DNA of 46,261 bases, taken from positions 30,313 to 76,573 of the forward strand of contig NZ_AOMB01000007.1 of assembly GCF_000336675.1 (NCBI RefSeq), read 5' to 3'. The stretch's first letter is position 1; the number at the start of each line of letters is the position of its first letter. A program made the position numbers and the translations under genes. Under the pieces are notes generated by a model, which worked only from the letters and a program-made list of their open reading frames with translations, searched no databases and had not been told where the DNA came from. Below are positions 1 through 14,493 of this stretch, piece after piece. The stretch comes from Halococcus hamelinensis 100A6 (GTDB lineage: Archaea; Halobacteriota; Halobacteria; Halobacteriales; Halococcaceae).

Positions 1-3000
1 CCAGCCGATCGAGGAAGGCGTGGTACTTCTCGAAGAAGTGGTAGTGACTCAGGTCCCGCTCCCGAATAGGGTGCGCGACGTTGAAGACGAGACCTGGACG
101 CGATCGGCCTGCTCGGGAACTCGCTTGGATGTATTCAGCGGTTCCGCGAGGCATCCCGAAGAACGTCATCATGTTGAATCGGTCGACGTCCACCCCGTGG
201 GCGATCATGTTCGTCGCCGTGATGGTGTTTAGCCGACTCGCCAGCAACCAAGCGAGTGCCTCGCGAATTTCCTCGCTTACACGGGCGCGTTCGACGTCGA
301 ATCGGTCACTGTCGACCACCTCGTTCTCTTCATCGAGACTTGCCTCGAGTGTGCTTCGAAGCGATAGGACCGGTTCGGTCACGTCCTCTTCGAGTACCCC
401 TTGGTCGATCAGGCGGCTGAGGATCTGTTCGTCGGCTTCCTCGTCCCAGGGGTCCTCCACGATATCCAAGACTTCCATAATGGTCTCGAACCCGGTCCCC
501 CCAGTCATCCGCTCGGAAGCTAGCGGCGGTCGGTCGTCTTCTTGGAGGTAGGTATCGAGCTGGGAGACGATAGATTGGTCCAGTCGGTCACCATCCTTTT
601 TCGACAGCAGATAGGTGATACTGGTGCTATAGTAGCTGAGCAGCGCCAGCACCTCGTCGATAGAGTCTGCTTCGAGTGACGCCGTCGTGTCTGTTCCTTC
701 GAGGGCAGCACCCGTCAGTACTTGGCTCGGCTCGTTCAAGGACTTTCGGAATAGGTTCTGAATCTCTCGATGGTAGTAGAACAGGAGATCAATGATAGAG
801 TTGATATGGGTCTTCCCGTGGGGAACCAGCCCGATGTAGTAGCGCTGGGTCTCTGCACGCTCCTGTGCGTAGAAACTCTCCCGCAGGTATGGACCTGGAG
901 AGGGGAAGCGCTCGGCGGGCTTCATGAACAGGTTATGGACTTGGTCTTCAAACCCGGTGATGGTCGCTGTTGGTGCAATTACTTTCGTGGTTCCGGCCTC
1001 GACGAGCTCTTGTAGCTCAGCGACTCCTGTCTCGTAATGGCCGTCGAAGCTTCCCATGCTTTCTTCGAGCAAGTGAAGCTCGTCAGGAACCATCAGCGAT
1101 GGCGCAGGATCGTAGGGTTCGACCGGACGCGCCATGTCCGAGAAATCATCTCGGTCGATCGGACAGCCGTATTTTTCGGTACACTCACCTAAGCTTGCGA
1201 ACCCGTGAATGGGACACTCGAGCGTCATCTCGCCCGTAATGAGATGAGCGAACTTCCGCTGATAGCCGATAGCCGTGATTTTGTCGATGGTTCCCGCGAG
1301 AATCGTCGGTGCGTACCTGTAGAGCTCGTTGTCGACAACGTGAACTGGGAGTTCCTCCTCTGCGTACGTCTCGCTGGAGTCCAGCGAGCGCGACTGCCAC
1401 GGGCAGTCGAAGCTGCTCCCTGTACAACAGTGAGTTAGCCGGTGATCGTCCTCAGTAACTTGGACCTCGACATCCGCGCCGCACGCCGGACAGGTGGGAA
1501 CGACTTTCGCCTCACGGCGGAGACTTTCTCCAGATGGGCCCTGATACTGTTGGTGCTTGTCGTTGTCGTATCCGGTGAGGGCGTTCGGTGTGTTTGCCTT
1601 GCCGACGAGGTATCCCATTGAAAACGGACGGGAGGGATAAGAGCCAATATCAGACTGTTCGCGACGAACGAGGTCAGCGTACATCACCGTCTCTGTCATC
1701 CGCTGGAACTGCTGAAGTGAGAGGAGCCGAAGGGGGAACTTTGTCCAAGCAGTCACGCCAAAGTCCTTCTCGCGGAGCCGGTCGAAGAACATGCTCCAGA
1801 CGGCGACGCCGAGAAATGCCTCCGTCTTCCCACCACCTGTCGGGAACCAGAGTACGTCGACGACATTGAGGGGCGAATCGGCGTCCTCAGCGCGGTCCTC
1901 AGTCGAGCCATTACGCCAGTCGACCTCTCCCCACTCCTCGTACTCGCGGCTTGCGACGTCGGGTACCTCCATGACGATGAACACCAGCTGGAAGAGATGC
2001 CATCCTGGGAAATCGTGCATCTCGCCCATCGCCTCGTTCATCAACTCAAACGCACGCCCGACTGTTTCGGGGTGCTGGCGGAGGCACTCGATCCCGCGTT
2101 CAAAGCGTTTGATTTCGCGCTCGAACGCGTCACGGTCATCGTTGAAGTCGGCGAGATCACCAGTTTCGGGATCGTCGTCCCAGTCTTCGCGCTCACGATA
2201 CTGTTCGAGTGCGGCATCGTACTCTTCGCGGAGGTACTGCCGCATCTCGGCAGCGATTTGATCGAGAGTGTCGAGGCCACCACCCTCCAAGTCCGCGAGC
2301 ACCTCGAATGTCGCCTCGATGCCCCGATCTGCAGATTCGTAGACGAGTTGGCGGTACTCTGGGATGAACTGTGTCTCCAGTCTGTTCGCCGTCGGTGCTG
2401 CACCAGGTGCGCGACGACCTGGTGGGATTCCCTCTTCGTCCACTTGCTGGTCGTCACGTTCAGGGGCGGTAACCGTGCAATTACGCCCATGACCCCAGAG
2501 ATCGCGATTGTATCGAAAGTCCTCGGGAAGGGGGTCGAAAGTGAAAGGGACAAACTTGAGGTCTCCTGTCGTCTCCAGTCTGAGTCCCACCTCGAACAAT
2601 GTCGGGTCCCGGATGGTGTAGATAGCATCATCGCGCGATTGGATCGCGTCGTTGGCGACTTCGAAGTCGACGATGGTGCTGTTGTCTCCGCTCTCGTCAT
2701 CGGCCATCACCTCCACGGTCAGACCAGCATGCCAATCGGGGAGAACCAGAGATCCCTCGGCAGCGCGCTCAGCGAGGTACCCACGAAAGCTCGACTCGTC
2801 TTCTAGCGCAACTGTCGGGACGGCGTCGTCATCGTCCGTCTCAGCGTAGAGATCATAGTTCTCTTGAGCATACTCACGGGCGTCAGCAAATGCCGTCTGG
2901 AACGCTTCCCGAGCACGCTCTTGGATAATCTCTGGGGTAGTCCGGCTCGGTGTCCGAAGTCTAACTGCCGGGATCTCGATTGGAGGTACATCGAGTTCGA

Positions 3001-3412
3001 TTCGTTCGAACACTGGTAGTAGGCTGTCGCCTTCGTCGTCCTCGTCACGGTCTCCCAACGCAACGAAGGAATCTCGGTTCACCATTTCGTCGTACGTTGG
3101 GTTGACACGCACCCACACGCTGGCATTTACCGAAAGTATCAAGTCGTCGTCTTCGGTGCCACCTTGTACGCGAACGGTGGCGCCAAGGCCAGTCGGCTCC
3201 ATCTTCGACTGAAGGTCGTCATCTGGGTCGTCAAGCTGCTCCTCGCTTTCAGGAGCCAACGCGCCTGCGAAGAATCGTTCGCTGGGGAAGTCACGCTGGA
3301 CACGGTCGTCAATGTCGCCACGAGCCTGTTTCAGCACTGTCTCGCGAAGGTGTCGAGCAATCCGTTCGTCGTCGGCCGGGGGTTCGGTTCCGGCATTATT
3401 TACTGTTGACAT
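1..3412 (-). CDS. drmA: DrmA-like superfamily II helicase (C-terminus beyond window)
   Basis: About 1137 residues are visible and the frame runs off the left edge without a stop. Superfamily II motifs are clear: Walker A PTGGGKTE (residues 524-531), a DELH box (777-780), GVDVDRFN in the second RecA lobe, and SRAGR (1099-1103) as motif VI. Between the lobes lie cysteine pairs (C641/C644, C661-C669 and a later C-rich stretch) that look zinc-binding. The sequence after Walker A (PLRLLSLQQFQRM) and the DELH variant match the DISARM helicase DrmA, which typically ends in a DUF1998/MZB domain; that part would be off the window. It starts 4 nt after the paraMORC stop, so the two are co-transcribed and probably work together on incoming DNA. 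Helicase class is sure; the DrmA assignment is by motif memory only. Confidence 0.85.
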   Translation of the reverse strand, partial: MSTVNNAGTEPPADDERIARHLRETVLKQARGDIDDRVQRDFPSERFFAGALAPESEEQLDDPDDDLQSKMEPTGLGATVRVQGGTEDDDLILSVNASVWVRVNPTYDEMVNRDSFVALGDRDEDDEGDSLLPVFERIELDVPPIEIPAVRLRTPSRTTPEIIQERAREAFQTAFADAREYAQENYDLYAETDDDDAVPTVALEDESSFRGYLAERAAEGSLVLPDWHAGLTVEVMADDESGDNSTIVDFEVANDAIQSRDDAIYTIRDPTLFEVGLRLETTGDLKFVPFTFDPLPEDFRYNRDLWGHGRNCTVTAPERDDQQVDEEGIPPGRRAPGAAPTANRLETQFIPEYRQLVYESADRGIEATFEVLADLEGGGLDTLDQIAAEMRQYLREEYDAALEQYREREDWDDDPETGDLADFNDDRDAFEREIKRFERGIECLRQHPETVGRAFELMNEAMGEMHDFPGWHLFQLVFIVMEVPDVASREYEEWGEVDWRNGSTEDRAEDADSPLNVVDVLWFPTGGGKTEAFLGVAVWSMFFDRLREKDFGVTAWTKFPLRLLSLQQFQRMTETVMYADLVRREQSDIGSYPSRPFSMGYLVGKANTPNALTGYDNDKHQQYQGPSGESLRREAKVVPTCPACGADVEVQVTEDDHRLTHCCTGSSFDCPWQSRSLDSSETYAEEELPVHVVDNELYRYAPTILAGTIDKITAIGYQRKFAHLITGEMTLECPIHGFASLGECTEKYGCPIDRDDFSDMARPVEPYDPAPSLMVPDELHLLEESMGSFDGHYETGVAELQELVEAGTTKVIAPTATITGFEDQVHNLFMKPAERFPSPGPYLRESFYAQERAETQRYYIGLVPHGKTHINSIIDLLFYYHREIQNLFRKSLNEPSQVLTGAALEGTDTTASLEADSIDEVLALLSYYSTSITYLLSKKDGDRLDQSIVSQLDTYLQEDDRPPLASERMTGGTGFETIMEVLDIVEDPWDEEADEQILSRLIDQGVLEEDVTEPVLSLRSTLEASLDEENEVVDSDRFDVERARVSEEIREALAWLLASRLNTITATNMIAHGVDVDRFNMMTFFGMPRGTAEYIQASSRAGRSRPGLVFNVAHPIRERDLSHYHFFEKYHAFLDRL

Positions 3413-3416
3413 TTTA

Positions 3417-6152
3417 TCACTCCGTGATTCGGTCGAGCTGGTCGTCCGGGATGATGGTCGGCATAAGTGTAGGGGCGAGGGCGTTGATGCTACGGGCTAC
3501 AACCTCGGTTGTGATAAGGTCCGTGCCCTCGATACTCGTACCGTACTCCTCGACGTAATTACGGTACATGGTGATGGTGTAGAACACCATCGCAAGTTCA
3601 TAGTGCCGCTCGACGAACTCCTTCCAGTTGTCCTTAACGTTGCGCCCGACGATGAACGACCGGAGCGCGGCAGCATCCATGTTGATCGTAAGCGAGAGGC
3701 CGCTGATGGTGCCATCCTGACTCGGGTCGATGTGGATTAGCGTGTGTTCATTGAAGTCCTCCGCATCGTCCGCATTGAACTTCTCGGGGTCGAGCGGTTC
3801 CCCTTCGTCATCAGTTCGCCAGTTCTCTTCGTAGACGTACGCGATGTCAGGCATTTCGAAGTCCCAGTCGTCGGTCACACCATCGTCGCCTTCGGCACCA
3901 TCCTGGTCATCTGTGCCTGCCCCGTCGTCGCCAGAAGAGTCGGCGTCGCCTGTGTCTTCATCCCTCCCATCACCGGACGGTGAGTTCCATGGCTCGGGCT
4001 CTTCACTGCAGTACTCAAGGCGACAGCTCGCAGTCAGCGGGCTAATATCGACGTCTACGCCGCCGTCGGTGAGCATGCCGGCCCCAGCTTGTTCCGGGTA
4101 GGCCTCGGCCGGATCATCGATGGCGGAGCAGTCCCGCGGATCGGGGCGAGTCAGTGTAACCGATAGTGGGAACGTCTCTCCGGGTTCGGCGTCGTCGGAT
4201 GGGTCGATAGTCAGCGTGAGCAGACCGTCTTGAAGTTCCACCGCTCGCAGCTGACTGGGGTGGGAAACCTCCAGCGAGCCGGAGAGGACGTCGCGAGCGA
4301 GGTAGTTGCTTTGGGTGTCTGTTGCGAACCGGATCGTCGCCGGGCTGTCCACAGGAATCTCGACGGGCATGGGTCCATCGTCGTCCCAGAGCACGTGTTC
4401 GGCACTCCCGGGGTCGTATTCCTCGATCGGGGTGAGGAACGTCGGAAGTTTCGGTGCGTGCGGCCCGTCATCACCATCCGAATCACCGGCCCCTGTGTCC
4501 GTGTGGTCGGTGAGACTGTCGTCCGTAATATCAGGAGGAGTCGCCTCTCCCTCATCACTGGGGCGGATACGTGGTGCCCGGATCCGCTCGCCCGTGGCCA
4601 TGAAATTCCCGACTTCCGGATTCCGCTCGATGAACTCAGCGAACGTCTCGGTGTTCGTCGCCGGGTCGGTATTTCCGCGCTGGGCCCGTCGGCGTTCCTC
4701 CTCGTCGGTGAGCAGGTCACTTCCCTCGAGGGCGTCCTCGAGCGCACTGAGGAACTTGTTGGCTTGTGGGGAGTCTTTCAGCGTGTCCCGAGACGGACTG
4801 AACATATTGACCATCCCAAGGTTCGCGAGGTCATCGAATTCGACGACTACGACGGTGTCAGAGGCGACCTTGGAGTAGCCAAGCGACTTCAAGAAATACT
4901 TTCTCTTGCTCGCGTGGGTCTGGCCGTTGATCGTGAGCATCACGGCGTGGTCATTCTGAACCCCTGTCCGTCCCGAGGAGTCCCTATGCGTCGACGTATC
5001 GGAGACGAACTTGCTCTTCTCGGTTGAGTCCTCGAGCCTGTCATCGTCCTTAAACAGCAACACCGTGATGTCCCGTTCTCCCAGCGTTTCCGAGCCTGTG
5101 TCGACGGAGAGATGCTCTTTGCCCTCGAGCAGGTGCTCGTTGCCGTCCTCCAGCTCTTGCAGGAAGCCCCGTGTGGAGCTCTGCGGGAACTTCGAGTTGT
5201 AACGGAGGTCGGTCAACTGGATGGGATACGGTGAGTCGACGACGGAGCGCTCGAACTTGTGCCGGAACCCCTCATCGCCGCTGATCATCGTTCGCGAGGC
5301 GTTCGTCTGGTAGTCGTACACCTTGACAAAGGCACCATGGCTCTGCGGGTCAGGTATCGTCGTGTTCTTCTCGAAATCGTACTTCTCAGGGTAACTCTCG
5401 CGGAACTTCTCCGTGAGCGCCTCGCCAAACGTGCCATCAAAGGTGGGGAATTCGCCGTTCACCGTGAGGTACTCGACCTGACTCTTGCGAGGTTTGTCGT
5501 GGATGAGCGTCCACGACCACTCTCCGGGCTCGTGGACGGAGGCGCTTGCGATGAACTTGAACGCCCGCTCGTTGTACTCCTCTTCGATATTCCCGGCAAA
5601 CTGCATCACGGCCGTACTTCCCATGCCATACTGACCCTGCAGGAAGTCGAAATCCTGCTTCTTCAGTCCGGGCGCGTGCAGCCCAACGAAGTCTTCGAAC
5701 TCAGAGCGGGCCTTCCCCTTGCCGTTGTCGCGGACAGTAAGGTTGAGCTGGTTCCCCTTCTTCGGTGCGGAGCCATCAGCGATAATCTCGAGCTCAGCAG
5801 CCTCGAGATCGACCCAATCTGCTTGTGCAGCTTCCTTCATTGAGCGGGCCCTTGGGTTATCGCCGATCGCGAGTGCTTCTTCGTAGAAGCGGAGAGTAAG
5901 CGAATCCTCTGCGTTGAGTGGCAGTTCCGAGAACGCCGCCATTGGAGAACTCGCCTGCGTGTAGACGTCGGAGTAGTTGTTCTCATCGTTTCCGAGGGGT
6001 ACCCATTTGATCTCAGACGATTCCTCCTGTTCGGAGAGGGAACGTTCCAGCTCGTCGATAACGCTTTGTACCTCATCTGGGCTATTCGAAGTGAGCAGCC
6101 GTTCGGCGTACGTCTTGGAGTTGGCTCCTGAGAGCCGCACGGGCTCACTCAT
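3417..6152 (-). CDS. GHKL ATPase of the paraMORC type, restriction-associated
   Basis: A 911-residue protein with a Bergerat (GHKL) ATP-binding fold: N-box E76-xxx-N80-xx-D83, DNGKG at 142-146 and the glycine lid GQYGMGSTAVM at 173-183. A basic-rich segment near 413-461 sits where the S5-like half of the ATPase module would be. Two Asp/Gly-rich linkers (about 533-566 and 717-763) separate a beta-rich, possibly Ig-like segment (about 590-670) and a C-terminal domain (770-911) I do not recognise. Prokaryotic MORC-like and paraMORC ATPases are known from restriction-modification neighbourhoods with SF2 helicases, which fits: drmA-like gene 4 nt downstream, methyltransferase divergent. The start is fixed by an in-frame stop just upstream; its ATG overlaps the stop of a 33-aa ORF (ATGA). 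ATPase call firm; subfamily inferred. Confidence 0.8.
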   Translation of the reverse strand: MSEPVRLSGANSKTYAERLLTSNSPDEVQSVIDELERSLSEQEESSEIKWVPLGNDENNYSDVYTQASSPMAAFSELPLNAEDSLTLRFYEEALAIGDNPRARSMKEAAQADWVDLEAAELEIIADGSAPKKGNQLNLTVRDNGKGKARSEFEDFVGLHAPGLKKQDFDFLQGQYGMGSTAVMQFAGNIEEEYNERAFKFIASASVHEPGEWSWTLIHDKPRKSQVEYLTVNGEFPTFDGTFGEALTEKFRESYPEKYDFEKNTTIPDPQSHGAFVKVYDYQTNASRTMISGDEGFRHKFERSVVDSPYPIQLTDLRYNSKFPQSSTRGFLQELEDGNEHLLEGKEHLSVDTGSETLGERDITVLLFKDDDRLEDSTEKSKFVSDTSTHRDSSGRTGVQNDHAVMLTINGQTHASKRKYFLKSLGYSKVASDTVVVVEFDDLANLGMVNMFSPSRDTLKDSPQANKFLSALEDALEGSDLLTDEEERRRAQRGNTDPATNTETFAEFIERNPEVGNFMATGERIRAPRIRPSDEGEATPPDITDDSLTDHTDTGAGDSDGDDGPHAPKLPTFLTPIEEYDPGSAEHVLWDDDGPMPVEIPVDSPATIRFATDTQSNYLARDVLSGSLEVSHPSQLRAVELQDGLLTLTIDPSDDAEPGETFPLSVTLTRPDPRDCSAIDDPAEAYPEQAGAGMLTDGGVDVDISPLTASCRLEYCSEEPEPWNSPSGDGRDEDTGDADSSGDDGAGTDDQDGAEGDDGVTDDWDFEMPDIAYVYEENWRTDDEGEPLDPEKFNADDAEDFNEHTLIHIDPSQDGTISGLSLTINMDAAALRSFIVGRNVKDNWKEFVERHYELAMVFYTITMYRNYVEEYGTSIEGTDLITTEVVARSINALAPTLMPTIIPDDQLDRITE

Positions 6153-6250
6153 GCGTTCTCACGCTCTACGGGATGAATGCCGGAACAATCGTTCGGCCGG
6201 TGCTGCGTCGGAGCTACGGCGTCGTGTGGGCCTGTAGTGGTGCGGGCCAT
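6149..6250 (-). CDS. 33-aa leaderless ORF translationally coupled to the paraMORC gene
   Basis: A short ORF begins at an ATG 26-30 nt downstream of the TATA-like box that lies inside the 6262-6297 palindrome, the spacing expected for a leaderless haloarchaeal transcript. Its TGA stop overlaps the ATG of the downstream ATPase gene (ATGA), a classic coupling arrangement. The 33-residue product is hydrophilic with three His and one Cys (H9, H17, C22, H26), so a small metal-binding or regulatory peptide is imaginable, but no family is recognised. Without this ORF the operon would have an unusually long leader (about 100 nt). Coding status rests on promoter spacing and overlap only. Confidence 0.6.
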   Translation of the reverse strand: MARTTTGPHDAVAPTQHRPNDCSGIHPVERENA

Positions 6251-6261
6251 GTCTCCACAAA

Positions 6262-6297
6262 CAGACCCCGTCCTCATAAATATTCGGACGGGGTCTG
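6262..6297. promoter_or_regulatory. Perfect 12-bp inverted repeat enclosing the operon TATA box
   Basis: Left arm CAGACCCCGTCC (6262-6273) and right arm GGACGGGGTCTG (6286-6297) are exact reverse complements, separated by 12 nt that contain ATAAATAT. Read on the minus strand, TATTTATG (6283-6276) is a good TATA box, about 26 nt before the 33-aa ORF start at 6250. A dimeric repressor bound here would block TFB/TBP, so this is a likely operator for the defence operon. It could also be read as a stem-loop, but it lies upstream of the predicted transcript. Confidence 0.65.
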
Positions 6298-6300
6298 GTT

Positions 6301-6378
6301 AGTAACTTAACGCGCTCGCGGGCGAGCGTCGCGCGCTCGGTCCCGCGCGCGTGTGCGCGCACGTGCGTGCTGCAGCAC
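6301..6378. repeat. Cluster of palindromes and alternating purine-pyrimidine DNA
   Basis: In the spacer between the divergent defence genes: CGCTCGC-GG-GCGAGCG (6313-6328), a strictly alternating pyrimidine-purine tract of 27 nt (6344-6370, CG/TG/CA steps) capable in principle of Z-DNA, and the perfect palindrome GTGCTGCAGCAC (6367-6378). No gene is seen here. These could be binding sites for a regulator, or methylation targets at which the methyltransferase controls its own expression; neither is shown. Confidence 0.5.
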
Positions 6379-6483
6379 AGGCGAGTGAATTGGAAGTGAC
6401 TCTATCCGCTCGACGGGCGGAAAATCTGTCTGTAAAATCAATCGTGTCCACAAAAGTCGGCGTTGAACGGCCGTGAGTGATGT

Positions 6484-6495
6484 TAGAATAAATAG
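6484..6495 (+). promoter_or_regulatory. TATA-like element for the methyltransferase gene
   Basis: TTAGAATAAATA is the only A/T-rich block ahead of the methyltransferase and would place transcription start near 6515. That favours the ATG at 6544 (leader near 30 nt) over the GTG at 6502, which lies too close to the box. Confidence 0.4.
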
Positions 6496-6543
6496 TACCA
6501 AGTGATCCTGGAGTTTATCCCCGGTGACGAGGTACACTCAAAT

Positions 6544-8784
6544 ATGCCTGAATCGGTCACGGGTTCTGATTCGCCCATGGCGCTACTACGGTCAGCGCCA
6601 ACCTCAGAGCGTGACACTCATCGGCAGCTACTTTTCGACAATATCGAGTTTCTCATTGATACGATCACAGCAGCCCATATGCGCACTCAACGAATGGCTC
6701 CTGTTGGCTGTCCAATGTCAACGCCGGAGCGCCTAGCGCGGCAGCGCGACAGAAACGGTGACGACTGCCGATACGCAATACTGACCTCTGCTCAAGGCGA
6801 ATCGAAGGACGCGCTCTGCTCCTGTGACGACCCGCTCTGTGGGAGCGACGACCCGCTGGATGCTGTGGCTGCGGTCGTCTTGGGATCTACCGTTGACGCC
6901 CCAGCGGAACGCTTCTTTCAGCGTCAACCTAGGCGAACAGTCAGTGAGCTTCGGGAGCAATACGGGAGCTGGGAAACTCTCGCTTCGATGAGTCGCGATG
7001 AACTGTCCGAGGCCCTTCACACTGCTTGCTCACTAAAAGGAGTAGGAAAGTGTCGGGTTTCCCGTCTCGAAGAGCTTCTTATGGCTATTCGAGGGTTTGA
7101 GTATACGGATGGAGTGACCCTCCGGGACCCCTCGCGGATGCGGTACCAGAGCTATGTCGACTTCCTTACGAGTATCCCCGGAATTGGACAGGATGATGGA
7201 TGGTGGCTCCTGCAGACAGCCTTCGATAAACCGGTTTGGCCGACAGATCCTTGCGTCGATGAACTTCTGTGTGCACTCGGATTGCTTGATCCAGATAATT
7301 TGCACACATCTGAAAGTCGTCGCCAAGTTCTTGAAGAAGAACTGACCGACCGTCAGATTGCTCCTCTCTATCGGGCACTTGCCACGCACGCAGTTACTGC
7401 AGGAACAGATGTTTGTGGAGAAGACTGCGAAATTCGCAAGTTCCTACTTACACATCGCCTTCGACAGCAACAGAAGGACCGAAATGGCCCAACCGTTGTC
7501 GACCTCTTTTCCGGAGCCGGTGGCCTTTCATGTGGATTACGCCGAGCGGGCTACGATATCGAATGGGCGATCGATATTAATACAGACGCTGTGGCGACGT
7601 ATCGACTGAACCACCCCGAAATCCCCCACCAAAACGTCGTCTGCGGGGATGTCCGCGAGGTTGATCTTACGGCAAGAATCCAAGATGCCGTAAGCGAGCC
7701 CGATTTGCTAGTTGGTGGCCCACCGTGTCAGTCGCTCTCAAAGGCAGGATATCGGTCGCGTCGTAGTGCTGACGAGGACTACAGTATCCTTGATGACGAA
7801 CGGACAACGCTCTACACTCAGTATGTGAAAGCTGTCGAAGAGCTCCGGCCGAAGGGGATCGTAATGGAGAATGTTGAAGGCATGGTCAGTGAGGTGGAAG
7901 ATACTGGCATCCGTGTTATTGATTGGGTACTCGAGGATATCGAAAGACTTGGCGAAACGGGGCCGGGATATGATGTTGAATTTGAATTGCAGGATATGTC
8001 TGAAATCGGCATCCCACAAAAACGAGAACGCGTACTTCTGGTCGGGATTCGCGACGAACTCTCGGAGCATGTAACAGCAGATGAACTGCTAAATGAAATC
8101 TCGGAAGGGGGCAAGGCATGGGATATCCAGCAAGGGCTATCTGGGCTCCCCCGCCTTCGGCGAGGGGAGGGTGGAAGAGTCCTCTCGAAGACGGGACGTG
8201 GCCCTAAAAGTGGCTACGTGAGTACTCATAGTCTCAATAAAGGAACTAACCTCTGTTTCAATCACCGAGCTCGAGAACATCCGATGGACAGAGATCAGAT
8301 TCTATTTGATGAGGCTCTGAGTCCTGGTGATACTGGATGGGATGTGAAGTATAATTCTGACGGAGAGTATTCGCAATACATCGAATATGATGTCGGAACT
8401 ATCGAGAACAGGCGCTTTGGGGACAAATACCGTATGCTCGAGTGGTCTAAGCCTTCTCCGACGATCGTAGCTCATCTAGCCAAAGACGCAAATAGCTACG
8501 TGTTACCGGATTATTACAGACATGCGTGTTCAAGCCCAGAGCGGGCGGATCCAGAGCGAAATCGTGGTATTACTCCCCGCGAAGCAGCACGATTACAATC
8601 ATTCTCAGATGATTATATCTTCTTGGGATCCTTCACGAGTTGGTTCAAGCAGATCGGTAACGCAGTACCACCTGTTGCAGGGAAACGAATTGGCCAAGCA
8701 CTCAGCTCGCTTGTTGAAGCAGGGGAGCCCCTATCAATCAATGCGGACGCATCAAGCTCCGGTCAAGCCGCTTCCGATGACTGA
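6544..8784 (+). CDS. HhH-GPD glycosylase-like domain fused to C5-cytosine methyltransferase
   Basis: Numbering here is from the GTG at 6502 (subtract 14 for the ATG used). Residues about 115-315 resemble endonuclease III/MutY/thymine-glycosylase HhH-GPD domains: a helical segment with SLKGVGK (177-183), the hairpin IPGIGQDDG (225-233) and the following WPTDPCVDELLCALGL with the expected catalytic Asp (D249). The catalytic Lys of bifunctional enzymes is replaced (D231), so a monofunctional glycosylase or an inactive domain is expected; only two cysteines (C305, C309) remain where a 4Fe-4S loop would be. Residues 330-735 carry all C5-methyltransferase motifs: DLFSGAGG (334-341), GGPPCQS with nucleophile C409, ENVEG (456-460), QKRER (506-510), TPREAARLQSF, QIGNAVPP. 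It methylates DNA cytosine and is likely the self-protection enzyme for the divergent paraMORC-helicase operon. Codon use is more A+T-rich than in the chromosome. Confidence 0.88.
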   Translation: MPESVTGSDSPMALLRSAPTSERDTHRQLLFDNIEFLIDTITAAHMRTQRMAPVGCPMSTPERLARQRDRNGDDCRYAILTSAQGESKDALCSCDDPLCGSDDPLDAVAAVVLGSTVDAPAERFFQRQPRRTVSELREQYGSWETLASMSRDELSEALHTACSLKGVGKCRVSRLEELLMAIRGFEYTDGVTLRDPSRMRYQSYVDFLTSIPGIGQDDGWWLLQTAFDKPVWPTDPCVDELLCALGLLDPDNLHTSESRRQVLEEELTDRQIAPLYRALATHAVTAGTDVCGEDCEIRKFLLTHRLRQQQKDRNGPTVVDLFSGAGGLSCGLRRAGYDIEWAIDINTDAVATYRLNHPEIPHQNVVCGDVREVDLTARIQDAVSEPDLLVGGPPCQSLSKAGYRSRRSADEDYSILDDERTTLYTQYVKAVEELRPKGIVMENVEGMVSEVEDTGIRVIDWVLEDIERLGETGPGYDVEFELQDMSEIGIPQKRERVLLVGIRDELSEHVTADELLNEISEGGKAWDIQQGLSGLPRLRRGEGGRVLSKTGRGPKSGYVSTHSLNKGTNLCFNHRAREHPMDRDQILFDEALSPGDTGWDVKYNSDGEYSQYIEYDVGTIENRRFGDKYRMLEWSKPSPTIVAHLAKDANSYVLPDYYRHACSSPERADPERNRGITPREAARLQSFSDDYIFLGSFTSWFKQIGNAVPPVAGKRIGQALSSLVEAGEPLSINADASSSGQAASDD

Positions 8785-14343: not shown

Positions 14344-14421
14344 GCCCGAGACCCCCGACAGTAAACCGGCCAAGCGTAGCCACTCTGCCTTGTCGTGGTA
14401 AGATGTGAAGGATTTGTTATG

Positions 14422-14493
14422 AGCCTAGGCCGGGATTTGAACCCGGGGTCTCGTCCTTACCAAGGACGCGCTTTACCGCTAAGCTACCCAGGC
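14422..14493 (-). tRNA. tRNA-Thr (GGT anticodon)
   Basis: A 72-nt cloverleaf: acceptor GCCTGGG paired with CCTAGGC (one G-T), D-stem GCTT/AAGC, anticodon stem CGTCC/GGACG with loop TTGGTAA (anticodon GGT at 14461-14459), 5-nt variable loop, T-stem CCGGG/CCCGG with TTCAAAT. CCA is not encoded. A TATA-like GATAAACGC lies about 30 nt upstream (near 14524). The 3' end borders the accessory region and is its likely integration site. Confidence 0.95.

Follow-up and report, generated by a model that had tools for sequence, protein, structure and literature searches.

A probable class 1 DISARM variant with a GHKL ATPase gene before drmA in the haloarchaeon Halococcus hamelinensis

The window analysed here is a stretch of 46,261 nt of the Halococcus hamelinensis 100A6 genome (contig C7:30313-76573), and its large genes of interest are found within positions 1-8784: a GHKL ATPase gene and a DrmA helicase gene on the minus strand and, divergent from them, a C5-methyltransferase gene on the plus strand. 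Together with the genes that adjoin them on the left they are read here as a variant of the defence system DISARM; the first-pass annotation of this DNA had taken them for a separate restriction-type system. The features of the window are given below; positions marked C7 refer to the contig, unmarked ones to the window, and L and G numbers to loci and genomes used for comparison.

2..3412, minus strand: DrmA, a superfamily 2 (SF2) helicase of the YprA family; the N-terminal 1137 of 1271 amino acids (aa) lie in the window, the remainder at C7:29819-30311
3417..6152, minus strand: GHKL ATPase, 911 aa, first large gene of the operon, 4 nt before drmA
6149..6250, minus strand: leader open reading frame (ORF) of 33 codons, with an ATGA overlap with the ATPase start
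6262..6297, no strand assigned: inverted repeat CAGACCCCGTCC-12 nt-GGACGGGGTCTG with perfect 12-bp arms and a TATA-like ATTTATG in the loop (6274-6285)
6544..8784, plus strand: C5-methyltransferase with a helix-hairpin-helix (HhH)-like N-terminus, 746 aa from ATG 6544 (the ORF opens at GTG 6502)
about 6916-7437, plus strand: Cys-rich HhH/EndoIII-like N-terminal domain of this methyltransferase
about 7492-8703, plus strand: its C-terminal methyltransferase domain (Pfam DNA_methylase E=1.5e-58; motifs I, IV, VI, VIII, IX and X)

The genes had been drawn correctly from the sequence: the ATPase ORF, the DrmA ORF beginning at 3412, the divergent C5-methyltransferase ORF (6502-8784) and the leader ORF are all present, and the proposed DrmA-like identity of the helicase is borne out by a PADLOC DrmA match of E=5e-144, by an NCBIfam DISARM_DrmAS match of E=1.5e-113 that lies under the model cut-off, and by the motifs TGGGKT, DELH and QASSRAGR. 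The helicase ORF needs one correction, as a scaffold join interrupts it at window position 1. Immediately to the left (C7:30223-30401) a single N is flanked on both sides by the same 89 bp, which split drmA; this is an assembly artefact in which two pieces were placed one after the other with their overlap left unmerged. Translated without one of the 89-bp copies, DrmA is an uninterrupted frame of 1271 aa and drmA is therefore most likely intact.

The left flank, beyond the join, contains the following genes.

C7:27852-29822, same direction as drmA: DrmB (DUF1998/MZB), 656 aa; PADLOC DrmB E=4e-53
C7:26898-27827, same direction as drmA: DrmC of the phospholipase D (PLD) type, 309 aa; PLDc_2 E=1e-13, PADLOC DrmC E=4e-13, HAKVMLFD motif
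C7:22624-26781, same direction as drmA: DrmMI adenine methyltransferase, 1385 aa; PADLOC E=1e-99, DPAMGSG and NPPW motifs
C7:18411-21353, same direction as drmA: DrmD/BrxHII-type SNF2 helicase, 980 aa; PADLOC DrmD E=3e-114, BrxHII E=2e-169
C7:16987-18363, same direction as drmA: second C5-methyltransferase, 458 aa; PADLOC DrmMII E=3e-81
C7:14544-15857, beyond the second C5-methyltransferase: integrase gene

The operon thus runs GHKL ATPase, drmA, drmB, drmC, drmMI, drmD and C5-methyltransferase, with the HhH-C5-methyltransferase gene divergent from it. Active-site motifs were found in the helicases, DrmC and the methyltransferases, and the DrmD-type helicase also matches NCBIfam DISARM_DrmD (E=3e-127, under the cut-off). 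Among the best 25 PADLOC matches listed for each of the eight operon proteins there is none to DrmE. PADLOC defines type I DISARM by DrmA, B, C, D and MI without DrmE (PMC9252829), and since all five are present and DrmE is absent the locus corresponds to this type. With the complete class 1 core in its left flank the locus does not constitute a new restriction system, and it is very probably a class 1 DISARM variant of a haloarchaeal sub-type. The first-pass annotation had itself proposed looking for DUF1998 and PLD genes left of the window, and had named as the case against its proposal a flank completing DISARM with the ATPase as a standard member; the core is indeed completed there, but neither PADLOC nor NCBIfam lists the ATPase as a member. 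The gene order does, as had been suggested, depart from the DISARM orders described in the literature searched.

The 911-aa protein gave no match to PADLOC or NCBIfam models and only a weak one, under the cut-off, to Pfam HATPase_c_3 (E=0.004). Its GHKL motifs are intact, including an N-box (ELPLNAEDS), a G1 box of the DxGxG form (DNGKG) and a G2 box of the GxxGxG form (GQYGMG), and the key residues are invariant across 9 homologues. An AlphaFold2 model of moderate confidence (mean pLDDT 61.5, pTM 0.48) was compared with known structures by Foldseek, giving GRP94 (E=9e-10) and GyrB/ParE 43K (from E=1e-8) within an overall range of E=9e-10 to 2e-6; the alignments of this moderate-confidence model span 413-503 columns, which corresponds to the ATPase plus the S5 transducer. 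The protein is a GHKL ATPase with an S5 domain and a GyrB/Hsp90-like fold, in which the segment VNMFSPSRD is read from the sequence as the counterpart of the S5 basic finger region. The motifs and the S5 domain agree with the earlier designation of the protein as paraMORC; however, a regular-expression search of its 911 aa did not find the MORC S5 motif GhXhhpXXRhl, the best folds are those of GRP94 and GyrB/ParE, and 'paraMORC' is here an unproven label taken from gene context. A search of the GHKL profile against PDB sequences gave nothing meaningful, and neither a DNA-binding regulator domain nor a C-terminal nuclease domain was recognised in the protein. Its dN/dS of 0.12-0.15 against four relatives indicates that it is maintained as a protein under purifying selection. 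A relationship to DrmE was considered and rejected (hhalign probability 0.2% and 0.1% to two DrmE-like sets, and no DrmE_C match), as was one to the protein of about 880 aa encoded upstream of drmA in Afipia, which is itself without a Pfam or PADLOC match. No relatives of the ATPase were found in phage records.

The occurrence of these genes was surveyed in 243 genomes of the order, with a DrmA threshold of E<=1e-20. DrmA was found in 29 genomes and full-length relatives of the ATPase (at least 44% identity) in 6, five of which have it directly before drmA (Fisher p=1e-4, uncorrected for kinship); further ATPases with 81-83% identity are carried by two plasmids. The gap between the ATPase gene and drmA is 2-5 nt in close relatives. 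The gene order of the locus recurs in Halarchaeum rubridurum, N. pallidum and Halarchaeum sp. CBA1220, and in part in N. gari, where the contig stops after drmB; in Natronobeatus the GHKL, drmA and HhH-methyltransferase genes are present and the record stops within drmA. In a DrmA tree the seven systems with the ATPase or a remnant of it form one clade (support 100/100). This clade lies inside a larger one that also holds five ATPase-less systems, which have the same DISARM genes and all include the HhH-methyltransferase. The simplest reading of this sequence-based tree is that the ATPase was gained once, in a sub-clade of DISARM.

More distant relatives of the ATPase occur alone or by unrelated genes in Haladaptatus, Halorubrum and Halohasta, and still more distant ones in Hymenobacter and Pontibacillus, the Hymenobacter copy adjoining a cluster of SIR2, DUF262, PAPS-reductase and DUF4007 genes (all of these relatives: L059-L065; L149:11872-14340; L150:11908-14175). 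Genome G075 carries a distant GHKL relative (27% identity) in an ARMADA-like operon (L040:3146-15319, L050:1034-8707) that comprises a BrxHII-like helicase, a PglX-like methyltransferase, an OLD-like ATPase, the GHKL protein and a YprA-type helicase of 1764 aa with an MZB domain.

The position before drmA is occupied by other proteins elsewhere. In DrmE-type haloarchaeal DISARMs a DrmE-like protein is found in this slot, and in three DISARM-like operons on plasmids of Proteobacteria the gene directly before drmA encodes a different protein, unnamed and 834-943 aa long; these last proteins (L153:10096-12738, L155:9677-12508, L156:9829-12333) gave no match to Pfam or PADLOC.

The identity of the methyltransferase half of the divergent gene product is certain from its sequence, and translation probably starts at ATG 6544 rather than GTG 6502 because this Met is invariant in 12 homologues. 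It had been called a glycosylase-methyltransferase, a description that stands for the C5-methyltransferase with its HhH-like N-terminus and is weak for the glycosylase part, which is divergent and without a Pfam HhH-GPD match in any of the 12 homologues. The N-terminal domain matches NCBIfam MonDNAglycDR2438 at E=0.002 and stand-alone ORFs at up to E=4e-9, that ORF reading as an archaeal EndoIII, so that on sequence grounds the likeness to EndoIII appears real but remote. In the alignment of 12 homologues, judged by eye, the position of the EndoIII catalytic Asp (Asp249) is not Asp in at least 3, Lys is absent from the EndoIII Lys position, and Cys 70, 89, 106 and 108 are invariant. As the glycosylase catalytic residues are not kept throughout, the domain is labelled 'HhH/EndoIII-like' and its catalysis putative. 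The protein has a dN/dS of 0.12-0.14; AlphaFold2 gave no usable model of it (pLDDT 30, from a 4-row alignment). The fusion of its N-terminal 310 or so residues to a methyltransferase was detected in 13 of the 243 genomes, 12 of them with DrmA (p=9e-12); only three plasmid records carry it, and these are all from haloarchaea. Of the proposed co-occurrence of the three genes, therefore, the link between methyltransferase and DrmA (12/13) is sustained; the ATPase is limited to one sub-clade and is decayed in two of its members.

Several haloarchaeal DISARMs have a stand-alone HhH-GPD gene beside them (Pfam E to 3e-17; L056:8839-9630, L113:9306-10088, L115:8527-9306, L121:3910-4695, L145:16441-17085), possibly encoding a mismatch thymine glycosylase; PADLOC names two of these genes nicking endonuclease, and the H. 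hamelinensis locus is without one. Homology between these proteins and the N-terminal fusion domain was not upheld, the hhalign comparison being non-significant though colinear. Mig.MthI is a thymine glycosylase that partners an archaeal C5-methyltransferase, and the stand-alone protein has the features VDAN and GPYTA, which we take to be those of Mig.MthI; repair of deaminated 5-methylcytosine (5mC) is the natural hypothesis.

The inverted repeat between the divergent genes is found at the operon promoter in 11 of 13 related DISARMs, three of which lack the ATPase (G197, G205 and G232), with loops of 10-21 nt (positions in relatives: L058:4087, L057:9856, L148:17856, L152:15852, L151:15666, L056:9825, L049:896, L113:17346, L115:16114 and L116:12337). 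None was found at the operon start in 19 scanned loci of DrmE-type or other DISARMs, and no more than 0.5% of trials with shuffled regions produced one like it. In eight aligned sequences 5 of the 12 arm pairs are doubly changed, with a covariation score of 0.327 against 0.115 for shuffled and at most 0.08 for slid alignments. The arms change together between species, which indicates that selection keeps the symmetry and not the sequence. The repeat is accordingly a candidate operator of the DISARM operon as judged from the sequences, and may be either an operator with a co-evolving binding protein or a single-strand structure.

The leader ORF begins some 30 nt past the TATA-like loop in the downstream direction, the spacing expected of a leaderless haloarchaeal transcript, and its start is probably leaderless. 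Its length and the ATGA overlap are identical in N. gari, N. pallidum, CBA1220 and Natronobeatus, and the ORF has 35 codons in H. rubridurum and about 6 in G156. Selection on the peptide was rejected (pooled pN 0.27 vs pS 0.28, pN/pS about 0.95); a kept length and overlap with no conservation of the peptide fits translational coupling.

Compared with known systems, the locus resembles type I DISARM in having the five core genes contiguous and co-oriented on one strand of one contig, and the Serratia DISARM in having both adenine and cytosine methyltransferases (PMC9142583). It differs from type I in the extra GHKL ATPase before drmA, the C5-methyltransferase with an HhH-like N-terminus, the covarying promoter inverted repeat and a DrmD gene that is closer to BrxHII. 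With type II (DrmE, DrmMII) it shares a large extra gene directly before drmA and C5-methyltransferases that match DrmMII models, but the upstream gene encodes a GHKL protein and not DrmE, and DrmD and DrmMI are present. MORC and paraMORC systems (Iyer et al., 2008), including the paraMORC3-type Shedu protein VcSduA, likewise combine GHKL and S5 domains, and SF2 helicases, methyltransferases and PLD nucleases adjoin them; here, in contrast, the MORC S5 motif is absent, no C-terminal nuclease domain is recognised and the neighbouring helicase is DrmA. ARMADA (Bell et al., 2025, preprint, PMC12458937) is defined as a three-gene operon with a YprA homologue of the ARMADA clade; in the present locus DrmB and DrmC are separate genes and the helicase matches DrmA models, both of which speak against a place in ARMADA. 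BRIGADE is restricted to halophilic archaea (PMC12458937). Unlike ARMADA and BRIGADE, the locus has no 7-deazaguanine genes that could be seen among the operon genes. No description of a GHKL protein in DISARM was found in the literature searched, although the original DISARM paper, reportedly that of Ofir et al. in 2018, was outside that search; the combination of the ATPase with DISARM is likely, but not proven, to be new.

In DISARM, methylation is thought to mark self, and DrmAB is autoinhibited, becomes activated by DNA with a 5' overhang and has a weaker ATPase activity on methylated DNA (PMC9142583). By analogy with this work, host DNA would be marked by DrmMI and the two C5-methyltransferases, DrmAB would load onto unmodified viral DNA with single-stranded overhangs and then translocate, and DrmC and the DrmD helicase would help to destroy or block the viral DNA. 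In the VcSduA protein the GHKL (paraMORC3) domain is required for defence (PMC12137116). The GHKL protein of H. hamelinensis, likely a functional part of the defence, could, in the manner of GyrB, MutL and Hsp90, form a dimer clamp gated by ATP on DNA or protein beside DrmA, and from the slot that DrmE occupies elsewhere would make the activation of DrmAB, or the hand-over to the nuclease, conditional on the state of the DNA. Such a nucleotide-dependent clamp gating DrmAB or a downstream nuclease is offered by analogy, as a tentative proposal. The methyltransferase probably uses its HhH part to bind DNA, perhaps also to act at T:G mismatches arising from deaminated 5mC, and a factor that recognises the repeat surrounding the TATA box probably keeps the operon silent. 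A more far-reaching and rather doubtful extension would make the locus a third type of DISARM architecture, where a GHKL/S5 clamp replaces DrmE as activator of DrmAB and a fast-evolving palindromic TATA operator, possibly read by the HhH-C5-methyltransferase, lets methylation capacity gate the weapon.

A number of observations weigh against placing the locus in class 1 DISARM with the ATPase as a working part. The DrmD gene fits the PADLOC model of BrxHII (E=2e-169) better than that of DrmD (E=3e-114), and none of the DISARM proteins attains its NCBIfam cut-off, so that they are regarded as divergent archaeal members. The 243 genomes are phylogenetically non-independent, five close DISARMs are without the ATPase and similar GHKL proteins are found without DISARM. 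The ATPase of N. pallidum is split by a frame change, possibly a sequencing error, and on the DL31 plasmid phalar01 (L151:15810-15995, CP002989.1) only its last 60 or so codons are left, before annotated full-length drmABC; broken in one and deleted in the other with drmABC kept, the ATPase is a losable add-on, dispensable at least there.

One alternative arrangement is that of two adjacent systems, a class 1 DISARM and an autonomous module inserted next to it, consisting of GHKL ATPase, C5-methyltransferase and HhH-C5-methyltransferase. Exactly these three genes form a block in G153 (L039:12147-18704) with no DrmA match at E<=1e-20, and thus can exist as a module, and distant GHKL genes stand alone in Haladaptatus and others. 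Both methyltransferases are, however, found in related ATPase-less DISARMs and so are not merely partners of the ATPase, which in close relatives precedes drmA by 2-5 nt and has one promoter element in common with the core genes; the two-system arrangement is considered unlikely. The loss of the ATPase from two relatives that keep the core would also suit a protein that regulates expression of the operon or DNA topology instead of taking part in defence, a role in keeping with its place as first large gene behind a conserved promoter element and with a fold closest to GyrB/Hsp90. This role is judged quite improbable, as profile searches found no DNA-binding regulator domain and the promoter repeat is also present in the three ATPase-less systems. 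A paraMORC-type restriction-modification system functionally unrelated to DISARM is very improbable, for although a GHKL protein next to SF2 helicases, methyltransferases and nucleases is the paraMORC context (Iyer et al., 2008, PMC2292703), the helicase here is DrmA, followed by drmB, drmC, drmMI and a DrmD-type gene that complete the PADLOC type I core.

Some further features were observed around the operon. A remnant of a gene for an AspBHI-type (modification-dependent) HNH endonuclease lies between drmMI and drmD (L003:10353-10603, plus strand), and the gene is intact in Halarchaeum sp. CBA1220 (L148:32583-33626). A tRNA-Thr gene (window 14421-14493, minus strand) to the right of the locus and the integrase gene to its left suggest a mobile island; no att-like repeat of at least 14 bp common to the tRNA-Thr and integrase sides was found, which speaks against integration of an island at tRNA-Thr.

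With a haloarchaeal class 1 DISARM variant as the preferred reading, the slot before drmA emerges as a changeable position in DISARM, taken by DrmE, by an unnamed protein in Proteobacteria or by a GHKL ATPase. In several immune systems GHKL ATPases still pose an open question, and the near relatives in which the ATPase is present, broken or missing constitute a natural experiment on what it adds. The covarying promoter repeat provides a testable handle on the silencing of a dangerous multi-gene defence operon in archaea.
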